Source of the DNA: Chloracidobacterium sp. CP2_5A
GTDB taxonomy: Bacteria > Acidobacteriota > Blastocatellia > Chloracidobacteriales > Chloracidobacteriaceae
Length of the DNA: 64,000 nucleotides
Assembly: GCA_002254845.1 (NCBI GenBank)
Contig: NKPT01000003.1
Location: 62,001 to 126,000, forward strand
Direction: 5' to 3'
The stretch's first letter is position 1, and the number at the start of each line of letters is the position of its first letter. The notes below the pieces were generated by a model, which was given only the letters and a program-made list of their open reading frames with translations, was not told the DNA's origin and did no database searches. The position numbers and the translations under genes were made by a program. Positions 57,602 to 61,768 of this stretch are shown one piece after another.

Positions 57602-58651
57602 ATGGTTCACCGACTGCTGGCTCGCGGCGTCAACTGGGTTGGCGACAGCATCATGACTTTGCCCGCCCTGCGCGAGCTGCGGCGCGTCTTCCCGGACGCG
57701 CGCCTGACGCTGATGGCGCGGCCGTGGGTCGCCGATCTCTTCGCGGATACGCCGTTGGCCGACGACCTGCTGCTTTACGACAGCCGCGAGGAATCTTTCC
57801 TTTCCGGCGTCGCCAAGCTGCGCGCCCGCCGCTTTGACGCCGCCATTCTCTTCCAAAACGCTTTCGAGTCCGCCGCCCTCGCCTTTGCGGCGCGCATTCC
57901 GCGCCGCATCGGCTTCGCCACCGAAGCGCGCCGGTGGCTCCTGACGGAGGCTGTTCCCATCACGCCGGCGACGCGCCGCAAGCATCAGATTTACTACTAC
58001 CTCGATCTGGTGGCGCAGCTGGAAGCCCGCCTGACCGGAACAACCCAGGTCAACTATGAAGCCCTCGACTATCGTCTTCCGGTCGCGCCGTCCGCTGTCG
58101 CCGCGCTCGACGCCAAGCTCCCCAACCTGGGGCAAAGCGCCCGTCCGGTCGCCGTCGTCCCCGGCGCGGTCAACAGCCGCGCCAAGCAGTGGGCGCCGAC
58201 GTCGTTTACGGACTTGCTCGACCGCCTAGCCGACCATGCCGACCTGGAGCTGTTTCTGGTCGGCGCGCCCGACGAGCGCCCGCTGTGCGAGTCCATCCGC
58301 CAGGCGATGCGCCGCCCCGCGCGGGCGACCGTCCTGGCCGGCGCGCTCTCGCTCCGCGAGAGCGTGGCGTTTTTATCGCGCTGCGCCGCGGTCATTAGCA
58401 ATGATACCGGGCCGGCCTACATTGCGGCGGCGCTCGACCGTCCCCTGGTAACCATCTTCGGCCCGACCGATCCCGATCAGATTTCGCCCTTTTCGCCGAC
58501 CGCGCGGATTGTCCGCAAGCTCGTTCCCTGCGCGCCCTGCCTGCTCAAGGAATGCCCGATTGACCACCGCTGCCTGGCCGGCGTGACGCCGGAAACCGTA
58601 TATCAAGCCGCCTGTCGCGCCCTCGGCTTCACAAAAGCCTTGCCAACCTGA
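57602..58651 (+). CDS. waaF: ADP-heptose:LPS heptosyltransferase II (GT9)
   Basis: The 349-residue enzyme transfers L-glycero-D-manno-heptose to the LPS inner core. It has the WaaF pattern: N-terminal LLARGVNWVGDSIMTLPALR, VVPGAVNSRAKQWAPTSFTD, then VISNDTGPAYIAAALDRPLVTIFG and CAPCLLKECPIDHRCLAGVT. It lies 156 bp after metH with a clear AGGAAA upstream of the ATG. Its presence argues for an LPS-bearing outer membrane. Confidence 0.9.
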   Translation: MVHRLLARGVNWVGDSIMTLPALRELRRVFPDARLTLMARPWVADLFADTPLADDLLLYDSREESFLSGVAKLRARRFDAAILFQNAFESAALAFAARIPRRIGFATEARRWLLTEAVPITPATRRKHQIYYYLDLVAQLEARLTGTTQVNYEALDYRLPVAPSAVAALDAKLPNLGQSARPVAVVPGAVNSRAKQWAPTSFTDLLDRLADHADLELFLVGAPDERPLCESIRQAMRRPARATVLAGALSLRESVAFLSRCAAVISNDTGPAYIAAALDRPLVTIFGPTDPDQISPFSPTARIVRKLVPCAPCLLKECPIDHRCLAGVTPETVYQAACRALGFTKALPT

Positions 58652-58669
58652 CGGCAAACAAGCTAAGGT
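58640..58669 (+). promoter_or_regulatory. Candidate promoter of the aroF-trpEG leader
   Basis: TTGCCA (58640-58645), an 18-nt spacer and TAAGGT (58664-58669) would start RNA near 58676, giving a 25-nt untranslated lead before the leader peptide. The -35 overlaps the waaF 3' end. Confidence 0.4.
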
Positions 58670-58700
58670 CGCGCCCAGTTTTTCCTCTTTCGTCGTTTTT

Positions 58701-58799
58701 ATGCACGCGCGCAGCTTTACGTTTAGCGGCTATTGGTACTGGCGGAGCCCCTCCGGGAAGGCTTCGACCGGCCGGCCGGCGCGCGCGATTGACCACTGA
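58701..58799 (+). CDS. Aromatic-amino-acid-rich leader peptide
   Basis: A 32-codon open frame starts at ATG 58701 and ends TGA 58797-58799. Residues 6-14 read FTFSGYWYW: two Phe, two Tyr and two Trp codons in nine. Such clusters make a ribosome stall when aromatic aminoacyl-tRNA is short, the basis of trp- and phe-type attenuation. A strong intrinsic terminator lies 26 bp downstream and aroF begins at 58901. The sequence 58739-58748, covering the second Trp codon, can pair perfectly over 10 bp with 58806-58815. No clear Shine-Dalgarno site precedes the ATG, and expression is unproven. Confidence 0.7.
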   Translation: MHARSFTFSGYWYWRSPSGKASTGRPARAIDH

Positions 58800-58824
58800 G
58801 CCAACGCTCCGCCAGCTTTTTTAG

Positions 58825-58869
58825 AGCCGCCGACCTTCCCAAGCTAGGAGGTCGGCGGCTTTGTTTTTG
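58825..58869 (+). terminator. Intrinsic terminator, probable attenuator
   Basis: AGCCGCCGACCT (58825-58836) and AGGTCGGCGGCT (58849-58860) form a perfect 12-bp stem, followed by TTTGTTTTT. It lies 31-76 nt upstream of aroF. No promoter can fit well between it and the aroF start, so transcripts must read through it. GGGAAGG (58755-58761), just after the Trp codons, can pair with CCTTCCC (58834-58840), which overlaps the 5' terminator arm and is a possible antiterminator. Confidence 0.8.
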
Positions 58870-58900
58870 GTCATTTTTTCAACCGTGAGGAAACGCCACG

Positions 58901-59731
58901 ATGCTTGCTCGCCGAAGCTCTCCGTCGCATCACACAACCGTCGCCATCGCGGGCGTCCCCGTTGGGGAGCAGCCGCTTGTTCTCATTGCCGGCCCCTGCG
59001 CCGCCGAATCCGAAGCTCAACTTTGCGCCGTCGCGGAGTCGCTCGCATCGCTTGGCGTTCGCCTGCTGCGCGCCGGCGTCTACAAGCCGCGCACCTCGCC
59101 CTATAGCTTTCAGGGCTTGCAGGATGAAGGGCTTGAGCTGCTCGGCAGCGTGAAGCGGGCGTACGGCCTAGGCGTAGTCAGCGAGGTAATGTCGGTCGCC
59201 CAGCTCGAAAGCGCCTACGAAGTGTTTGACTGCTTTCAGGTCGGCTCGCGCAACATGCAGAACTTCGAGCTGCTGAAAGCTCTGGGGCAGGCGCGCAAGC
59301 CAGTTCTTCTCAAGCGCGGGCTGGCCGCGACCATCGAGGAATTCCTCGGCGCGGCGGAATACATCCTCGCGGGGGGCAACGCGCAGGTCATCCTCTGCGA
59401 GCGCGGGATTCGGAGCTTCGACCCGGCGACGCGCAACGTTCTGGACCTTGGCGCGGTCGCGCTGCTCAAGCGCCTGACGCACCTGCCGGTCATCGTCGAT
59501 CCAAGTCATGCCACCGGACGCCGCGACTTGGTGCTGCCGGCGGCGCGGGCGGCGGTCGCCGTCGGCGCCGACGGTCTCATCGTGGAATGCCATCCCGCGC
59601 CGGAACAGTCGGTTTCGGACGCGGCGCAGGCGCTGTCGCTGGATGATCTGGCGCAGCTTGTCGCCGAAACGGCGGCCGTCGCGCAAGCCGTGGGACGCCG
59701 ACTGCCTTACCCGATGGAGCGCGCGGCATGA
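58901..59731 (+). CDS. aroF: 3-deoxy-7-phosphoheptulonate synthase, type I-beta (DAHP synthase)
   Basis: The 276-residue enzyme joins phosphoenolpyruvate and erythrose-4-phosphate in the first shikimate step. It has [77 protein letters not shown] and [19 protein letters not shown]. It is the short form without a chorismate-mutase or ACT domain. Located first in the aroF-trpE-trpG operon, behind the leader-peptide attenuator; its stop overlaps trpE (ATGA). Confidence 0.95.
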
Positions 59732-61194
59732 GCTTTCTGACGGTCCTCTCGGACGCCGTCACGCCGGCGGCGCTTTACAATGAGCTGGCCGCCGGCTCGG
59801 ACGTCGCTTTCCTGCTTGAAAGCGCGGAAGGCGACGCGCGCCTGGCGCGGTATTCCATCATCGGCATCGAGCCGCGCCTGGTGACGGCGTTTTACGGCGA
59901 GCGCGTGACGGTTTACGACCTGTGCCGTCAAACCGAGCGACACACCCAAACTAATGACCCGCTGCGGTTTTTACGCGAGCTGCTCGAGCGCGAAAGCGCT
60001 CTCGTCGCCGACCAGCGCCAGGCGCTGCCGACGCTGCCTTTCTGCGGCGGCTTTGTCGGCTACTTGGGTTATGGCGCGACGGCGACGCTCGCCAACATTC
60101 CCCTGCAACCGACCGCGCCCTACGCCGCGCCGGACGGCTGCTTCGGTCTCTACGACACATTTGTCGTCTTTGACCACCTGTACCGCAAGCTGCACATTGT
60201 GTCCTACGGCGGCGACGCCATCGTGGAACAGGTTTACGAGCGGACGCGCCGCCGGACGCCCCTGCCGCCGCTGCGCGACGCCGCGGACGCGCTGCGCGGA
60301 CGCGATGTTTTCGCCGATGTTGACACGACGCTGGATGACGCGGCGTTTGCGGCGCTGGTTGAACGCTGTCGGGACTACATCGCCGCCGGCGAGGCGTTTC
60401 AGATTGTTCCCTCGCGGCGCTTTTCGCGGCGCGTGACCGCCGCGCCCTTCAACATTTACCGGGCGCTGGTGGCGCTCAATCCTTCGCCTTACGCCTACTG
60501 TCTCAAGTTCGGACGCTTCACGGGCGGGCCCGGCTTTACCTACATCGGCTCATCGCCGGAAACCTTTGTCGCCGCGCGGGATGGCGTAGTGACGTTGCGC
60601 GCCCTGGCCGGCACGCGCCCGCGTGGCGAAACGCCCGAAGAGGACGAGCGGCTGGCCACGGCGCTACGCGCCGACGAAAAGGAGCTCGCCGAACACCGGA
60701 TGCTGGTTGATTTGGCGCGCAACGATGTCGGACGGATTGCCGCAGTCGGCACGGTAGCGGTTGGAGAAATCGCGCGGATCGCGCGCTACACCCACGTCAT
60801 GCACCTCGCCACGGATGTCACCGGACGACTGCGACCCGGACTGACAGCTTTTGACGCGATGCGGAGTTGCTTTCCGCGCGGGACGGTGACCGGCGCGCCG
60901 AAAATCCGCGCCATGGAGCTGCTAGCTCAGCTCGAGCCCGAACGGCGCGGCCTTTACGCCGGGATGGTGGGCTACATTGACTTTGCCGGGCAGGCCGATA
61001 GCGCCATTGCGATTCGCTCGGCGCTTCTCCAAGACGGCGTTGCCCACGTCAACGCCGGCGCCGGCGTCGTTTTTGACTCGCAGCCGCAACTGGAAGCCGA
61101 CGAAACGCGCAACAAGGCGCGCAGCGTCATCACGGCGCTGCATCTGGCGGAAATCTCGCATCCTGCATCCGTTCGCCATGCTGATCATTGTTGA
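59728..61194 (+). CDS. trpE: Anthranilate synthase component I
   Basis: TrpE makes anthranilate from chorismate with ammonia delivered by TrpG. The 488-residue protein carries the tryptophan feedback site near residues 30-50 (LLESAEGDARLARYSIIG) and the chorismate-binding block (FKYIG-like FTYIGSSPETFV, then LAGTRPRGETPEEDE, CFPRGTVTGAPKIRAMELL, and NAGAGVVFDSQPQLEADET). Overlap with aroF by ATGA and with trpG by 17 bp shows tight coupling. Confidence 0.95.
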   Translation: MSFLTVLSDAVTPAALYNELAAGSDVAFLLESAEGDARLARYSIIGIEPRLVTAFYGERVTVYDLCRQTERHTQTNDPLRFLRELLERESALVADQRQALPTLPFCGGFVGYLGYGATATLANIPLQPTAPYAAPDGCFGLYDTFVVFDHLYRKLHIVSYGGDAIVEQVYERTRRRTPLPPLRDAADALRGRDVFADVDTTLDDAAFAALVERCRDYIAAGEAFQIVPSRRFSRRVTAAPFNIYRALVALNPSPYAYCLKFGRFTGGPGFTYIGSSPETFVAARDGVVTLRALAGTRPRGETPEEDERLATALRADEKELAEHRMLVDLARNDVGRIAAVGTVAVGEIARIARYTHVMHLATDVTGRLRPGLTAFDAMRSCFPRGTVTGAPKIRAMELLAQLEPERRGLYAGMVGYIDFAGQADSAIAIRSALLQDGVAHVNAGAGVVFDSQPQLEADETRNKARSVITALHLAEISHPASVRHADHC

Positions 61195-61768
61195 CAACTA
61201 CGATTCGTTCACCTTCAACCTCTACCAGATGCTTCAGATGCAAACGACCGAGGAGGTCGTCGTCGTCCGCAATGACGCGGCGGATTTGCCGACGCTGGGC
61301 GCGTGGCAACCAACGCGGATTGTGTTGTCGCCGGGGCCGGGGCGTCCCGACAACCCGCGCGATTTCGGCGTTTGTCGGGACATCCTCAACGCCGCCGCGA
61401 CGCTCGCCGTCCCGATTCTGGGCGTCTGCCTGGGACACCAGGGGATTGCAGCGGCTTATGGCGGGCGCGTTGTCTGCGCCCCGCGGATTGTTCACGGAAA
61501 AGCCTCCGAAATTGTCCTGACGGCGGACTCGCCGCTTTTTGAGGGACTGCCGAAACGCTTCTCGGCAATGCGTTACCATTCGCTCATCGCGGACGAGGCG
61601 ACGCTGCCGGACTGTTTGACCGTCACGGCCCGCGCCAGCGACGATGGGCTGGCGATGGCCGTCGCGCACCGGGAGCTGCCAGTGTATGGCGTTCAGTTTC
61701 ACCCGGAATCCATCGGGACGCCGGAAGGCGGCAAAATCCTGGCCAACTTTCTGCGGCTTGGCCGTTAG
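61178..61768 (+). CDS. trpG: Anthranilate synthase component II (glutamine amidotransferase)
   Basis: The 196-residue class I amidotransferase has the catalytic cysteine in GVCLGHQGIAAAYGG, the PGPG motif in LSPGPGRPDNP, and His-Glu in FHPESIGTPEG. The start at 61178 (ATGCTGATC...) is inside the last codons of trpE. It could also serve p-aminobenzoate synthesis, as TrpG/PabA enzymes are often shared. Confidence 0.95.
   Translation: MLIIVDNYDSFTFNLYQMLQMQTTEEVVVVRNDAADLPTLGAWQPTRIVLSPGPGRPDNPRDFGVCRDILNAAATLAVPILGVCLGHQGIAAAYGGRVVCAPRIVHGKASEIVLTADSPLFEGLPKRFSAMRYHSLIADEATLPDCLTVTARASDDGLAMAVAHRELPVYGVQFHPESIGTPEGGKILANFLRLGR

Follow-up and report, generated by a model that had tools for sequence, protein, structure and literature searches.

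The leader that precedes aroF-trpE-trpG in the window (the complete 64,000-nucleotide stretch of DNA that was analyzed) is, in our view, very probably a ribosome-mediated transcription attenuator that senses Trp and Tyr, and probably also Phe. This reading is comparative and computed throughout; what we observe is the anatomy of the leader (Table 1), its conservation, selection on its control codons, and a conserved alternative pairing. A preliminary description of the window had proposed an attenuator that senses Phe, Tyr, and Trp; the architecture, conservation, and selection support that proposal, in which Trp and Tyr, and probably Phe, would be the signals. The leader is distinctive in having codons for all three end products and in serving aroF and trpEG as one unit, that is, a single control point would govern both the enzyme that opens the entire aromatic pathway and the Trp branch. 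The closest relatives with a name, L032 (uncultured Blastocatellia bacterium) and L040 (uncultured Chloracidobacterium), place the window in a Chloracidobacterium-type member of the Acidobacteriota (Blastocatellia).

Anatomy of the leader and its operon

The leader open reading frame (ORF) begins with the ATG at 58701 and stops with the TGA at 58797–58799; it encodes MHARSFTFSGYWYWRSPSGKASTGRPARAIDH, in which six of nine consecutive residues in the control segment are aromatic (Phe6, Phe8, Tyr11, Trp12, Tyr13, and Trp14). The 32-codon ORF at 58701–58799 and its six aromatic positions had been noted in the preliminary description and are correct on direct reading, as are all of its coordinates when compared with the sequence. 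Short ORFs of this composition are rare: among those of 10–60 amino acids on both strands of the 64-kb window, the leader is the only one with at least six F/Y/W in nine residues (at least two of them W), and 20 dinucleotide shuffles of the window produced nothing comparable; when the intergenic region was shuffled, an aromatic short ORF appeared on the + strand in 8 of 20,000 trials. The leader element is single-copy in the genome (3.4 Mb), in which TATTGGTACTGG is found once and TAYTGGTAYTGG also has one occurrence. The leader peptide has no Pfam match. None of 200 shuffles folds as well as the leader of 225 nt (z = −3.4).

Table 1. Features of the leader region and the operon (positions are those of the window).
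Feature	Position	Strand	Supporting observation
Predicted sigma-70-type promoter, TTGCCA-18-TAAGGT	58640..58669	+	Motif kept in 7/7 genus genomes
Leader peptide ORF, 32 codons plus stop	58701..58799	+	Kept in 7/7 genus genomes
Control codons F T F S G Y W Y W	58716..58742	+	Substitution rates, codons 6–15
Region 1	58740..58749	+	Pairs with 58806–58814 (long-range stem) or, as 58743–58749, with 58760–58766 (local hairpin)
Region 2, antiterminator 5′ strand, GGGAAGGCTTCGACCGGCC	58755..58773	+	Pairs with terminator 5′ arm
Long-range stem 3′ arm, GCTCCGCCA	58806..58814	+	Pairing counts
Intrinsic terminator with T-run	58822..58869	+	98.9% of cells paired, 7 genomes
Region 3, terminator 5′ arm and antiterminator 3′ strand	58825..58840	+	GCCGCCGACCTTCCC invariant in 7/7
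aroF, class I-beta DAHP synthase without N-terminal regulatory domain	58901..59731	+	TIGR01361 and PRK08673 above cut-off
trpE, anthranilate synthase component I	59728..61194	+	PF04715 and PF00425
trpG, anthranilate synthase component II	61178..61768	+	PF00117 and TIGR00566

A predicted promoter of the form TTGCNN-17/18-TANNNT (−35 and −10 elements) is found in all seven genus genomes at a near-constant distance from the leader ATG; from this conserved motif the transcript is predicted to start near 58676. None of the seven genus members has a Shine-Dalgarno sequence at the leader ATG (aroF has one), and the case for translation of the leader ORF is weakest here. For ilvBNC of Corynebacterium, a title cited in PMC4046766 reports that a leader peptide forms without a ribosome-binding site. 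We also observed a pyrimidine-rich stretch before the leader ATG (58676–58700 in the window) that is found in the same place in L003–L007 and L040.

The assignment of the downstream genes as aroF-trpEG in the preliminary description is backed by the profile matches in Table 1, with trpE overlapping aroF by 4 bases. The operon appears to contain the main anthranilate synthase of the genome, because the only other TrpE-like protein found is just 29% identical. The PRK08673 profile aligns to the aroF product only from position 72 of 338. In class I-beta enzymes, feedback inhibition resides in the N-terminal domain; because this regulatory domain is absent, control by tRNA charging may substitute for feedback inhibition in the domain-less DAHP synthase.

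Conservation, selection, and competing pairings

The 32-codon ORF, the terminator, and the competing strand occur in all seven genus genomes, which are close relatives. In the six genus genomes other than that of the window, the ORF contains FTFSGYWYWW (YWHWR in one); the species of the window and one other have Arg (CGG) at the position of the third Trp (TGG) in the rest. Two other genera of the family encode diverged W/Y-rich peptides (MNTQFFTAQYWWYYWFSPPVACPIVST and MSMTFSVAQKWQYKAWWIRTNGLPRLCTQLKR), each followed by a terminator and aroF-trpE; the aroF-trpE order is retained in both and in all genus genomes with a contig long enough to show it. The preliminary description had pointed to related genomes for comparison: the aromatic cluster, the terminator, and the competing strand are kept throughout the genus (7/7) and, in altered sequence, in the two further genera, and no relative was found that has the terminator and lacks the aromatic cluster.

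The terminator stem contains 12 perfect Watson-Crick pairs (58825–58836 with 58849–58860; 17 pairs when G-U and end pairs are included) and is followed by TTTGTTTTT, so the 12-bp terminator and T-run proposed earlier are borne out. Region 1 is located at and just past the last Trp codon; across the seven genomes, its pairing is retained in 95.2% of cells for the long-range stem and in 91.8% for the local hairpin, and the 10-bp stem (58739–58748 with 58806–58815) in the preliminary description is perfect. That description also suggested that GGGAAGG might compete for the terminator arm. The motif (58755–58761) is indeed perfectly complementary to CCTTCCC (58834–58840) in the terminator 5′ arm, a pairing retained in 100% of cells in the seven genus leaders; however, the antiterminator is longer than GGGAAGG, with full duplex energies of −21.3 to −26.1 kcal/mol in the genus leaders. 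The terminator arm does not vary inside the genus, which leaves hardly any compensatory covariation; with both arms nearly invariant, covariation is uninformative there. In the two other genera, the antiterminator is GGCCTGC:GCAGGCC instead of GGGAAGG:CCTTCCC, that is, both arms have changed together with retention of the pairing.

Differences per site, taken across every pairwise comparison of the seven genus leaders, indicate that purifying selection is strong on control codons 6–15 only (synonymous, 0.259; nonsynonymous, 0.029), with the rest of the peptide unconstrained (0.202 and 0.238, respectively, for codons 16–32; 0.167 and 0.196 for codons 1–5). Constraint on the control codons with drift in the remainder is the pattern predicted for a control-codon cluster. 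Three species have a one-base deletion after codon 21 and a compensating insertion a few codons later; these paired indels alter the peptide and leave both the antiterminator RNA (CGACCGGC) and the position of the stop codon unchanged.

These observations bear on three other explanations for the leader. Its position, with waaF on the + strand ending 50 bases before the leader ORF, is compatible with a plain waaF terminator and a chance ORF; however, the codon-level selection and the conserved ORF and antiterminator make this scarcely credible, as does the occurrence of the element at aroF in genera in which no waaF match is located upstream. Because waaF, the upstream neighbor in the genus, is unmatched at the aroF-trpE loci of the two other genera, the leader travels with aroF-trpE. 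Second, the element could be a riboswitch, a T-box, or a protein-bound attenuator instead of being sensed by a ribosome, since a terminator/antiterminator architecture is common to these classes; the in-frame codon constraint, together with the lack of a match to Rfam families at gathering score in the window and 15 related loci, renders this very improbable. Third, the leader might act in trans in addition to acting in cis, through its peptide or its released RNA, by analogy with the reported trans action of peTrpL of Sinorhizobium meliloti (PMC7298713). Termination would free a discrete small RNA of ~190 nt, but only the control-codon segment is conserved and codons 16–32 are free of peptide constraint, so we regard a trans function as improbable.

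Proposed mechanism, specificity, and precedents

From the features of the leader we infer the transcription start, translation of the ORF, ribosome stalling, and the amino acids that are sensed. RNA polymerase would start near 58676, with a ribosome trailing it along the leader ORF. When tRNAs charged with Trp or Tyr (and probably Phe) are scarce, the ribosome would stall at codons 6–14 and its footprint would mask region 1 downstream, which could then pair with neither 58806–58814 nor 58760–58766; region 2 (58755–58773), so freed, would pair with the 5′ arm of the terminator as it emerges, allowing read-through into aroF-trpE-trpG. If the aromatic tRNAs are charged, the ribosome would advance or depart and the region 1 hairpins would return, sequestering region 2; the 12–17-bp terminator would then halt transcription before aroF.

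We modeled the folding of the nascent RNA without the terminator 3′ arm, with pairing barred under a ribosome of ~29 nt; the predictions are equilibrium energies for a partial transcript. With the A-site at Tyr11, Trp12, Tyr13, and Trp14, the window leader is expected to form 11.5, 8.9, 12.6, and 12.6 antiterminator pairs, respectively; past the cluster, the expectation is 2.0 pairs on the next codon and 0.1–1.0 on the following five, and the ribosome-free leader has 3.2. The leaders of the relatives have an antiterminator peak at the matching position. In seven of eight leaders, the stalled value observed is attained in only 0–3 of 200 trials in which the codons downstream of the cluster are shuffled; G007 is the exception, with a stalled value no better than those of its codon-order shuffles. 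Most leaders in the genus have little predicted antiterminator when ribosome-free; in G006, the ribosome-free state fails to suppress it. With a ribosome on the stop codon, the model again favors the antiterminator in the window leader (10.5 pairs) and in most genus leaders, so termination must depend on ribosome release or fast refolding.

The same model bears on the involvement of Phe. The attenuator might respond to Trp and Tyr only, with the Phe codons as passengers that are too far upstream to free the antiterminator reliably: a ribosome stalled on Phe leaves region 1 beyond the assumed footprint, and in G001 and G004 stalls at Ser9 or Gly10 give almost no antiterminator, which is strong only at the Tyr/Trp block. 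However, Phe6 and Phe8 are invariant in all seven genus leaders despite a synonymous TTT/TTC change in one, a stall with the A-site at Phe8 in the window leader gives 11.3 expected pairs, and the G009 leader likewise has an upstream Phe-Phe. We therefore consider restriction to Trp and Tyr unlikely, although it deserves serious weight, and retain Phe as a probable third signal of the attenuator.

The trpL leader of Escherichia coli and other Proteobacteria is the classical trp leader attenuator. The window leader shares with it a short ORF with clustered control codons located upstream of anthranilate synthase and a mutually exclusive antiterminator and intrinsic terminator. Unlike trpL, the window leader would control aroF first, carries codons for Tyr, Trp, and Phe, lacks a Shine-Dalgarno sequence, and has its antiterminator strand inside the ORF, with the stop codon ~36 bases past GGGAAGG; in addition, a ribosome on the stop codon favors the antiterminator in our model, which differs from the E. 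coli trp leader.

The preliminary description knew of no such attenuator with DAHP synthase first in this lineage. The part concerning the lineage stands (we found no earlier report of such an attenuator in Acidobacteriota), but precedents exist for leaders in front of DAHP synthase genes, so the window leader is a known attenuator type in a new phylum. In Corynebacterium glutamicum, a leader-peptide attenuator with Phe-Tyr-Phe is predicted at the DAHP synthase gene aroF (PMC4046766); its leader likewise has aromatic residues, but the phylum is different and the trp operon has a separate leader with three Trp (PMC4046766). In Acholeplasma, the uORFC-13-1 motif upstream of aroF includes a uORF with at least one Phe codon and a terminator (PMC8632094); the gene downstream encodes the same enzyme as in the window, but the phylum and the sequence differ. 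Leader control of E. coli aroF has also been hypothesized, as cited in PMC8632094.

DAHP synthase families and their leaders

In a tree of 57 DAHP synthases, the enzymes of this family are sister to those of filamentous cyanobacteria (support, 100/98), and the other acidobacterial DAHP synthases fall elsewhere; among 247 sampled acidobacterial genomes, matches with >61% identity are found only in this family. The DAHP synthases elsewhere in Blastocatellia and the wider phylum (~50–61% identical) mostly have no aromatic leader by our criteria, so the element does not characterize the Acidobacteriota as a whole. In L011 (family f5, another Blastocatellia family; reverse complement), a possible leader ending in AAAIFWVFYFFNAFYFCPYKRAMVR is located 267–129 bases upstream of the match; our terminator scan accepted no terminator at this locus.

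In all 24 cyanobacterial loci (L033–L057 without L040), a leader such as MFATRSYFYFWYWKVRPE is followed by a terminator; in 20 of these, a second leader such as MTLFSNWYYGFYFWPRRSSG and a second terminator occur before the gene. The leaders are located ~100–460 bases before the gene for DAHP synthase; tandem leader-terminator units are present in at least 20/24 loci, with one unit recognized in the rest. In the folding model, most of the cyanobacterial antiterminators are stable with the ribosome early in the cluster and gone once it is past. These patterns suggest that serial attenuators before cyanobacterial DAHP synthase genes are possible. The cyanobacterial arrangement differs from that in the window: two units are in series, the likeness of the leaders is limited to aromatic content, and trpE is not adjacent to the DAHP synthase gene in the loci examined.

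It is conceivable, although we put this forward tentatively and as somewhat less likely than its opposite, that a gene-plus-attenuator module was shared or exchanged between the phyla and, in cyanobacteria, expanded into a series of two attenuators before one gene. A terminator sequence, GAACCGCAG...CTGCGGTTT, is common to G007 and cyanobacterial leader 1; the resemblance is suggestive of homology but may be convergent, and we do not claim homology. Korolev et al. (2016) stated that reliable data on attenuation in cyanobacteria were absent (PMC4833913), and in the open literature (subscription papers were outside our scope) we found no description of it. Together with the three-product codon mix and the joint aroF-trpEG unit, the tandem cyanobacterial cousins lift the finding above the routine; the tandem attenuators are open to testing in culturable strains.

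Among the loci read, leaders accompany the short-form DAHP synthases (those of this family and of the cyanobacteria) but are missing from most long forms; because each short-form group is a single clade, the pattern is no more than suggestive. Long forms with leaders nonetheless occur in L058, L059, L073, L089, L090, and L091. In L058 and L059 (other classes of Acidobacteriota), a long-form DAHP synthase is preceded by the leader MVANYYSFRFWFWPASSRVASA or MVANYYFFRFWFGPTSNRVASA and a strong terminator, ~430 bases upstream of the match. Aromatic leaders at DAHP synthase genes may be widespread. Aromatic-rich short ORFs, most with a terminator, also precede the gene for this enzyme in several further phyla (L063, L067, L073, L089, L090, L091, and L099).
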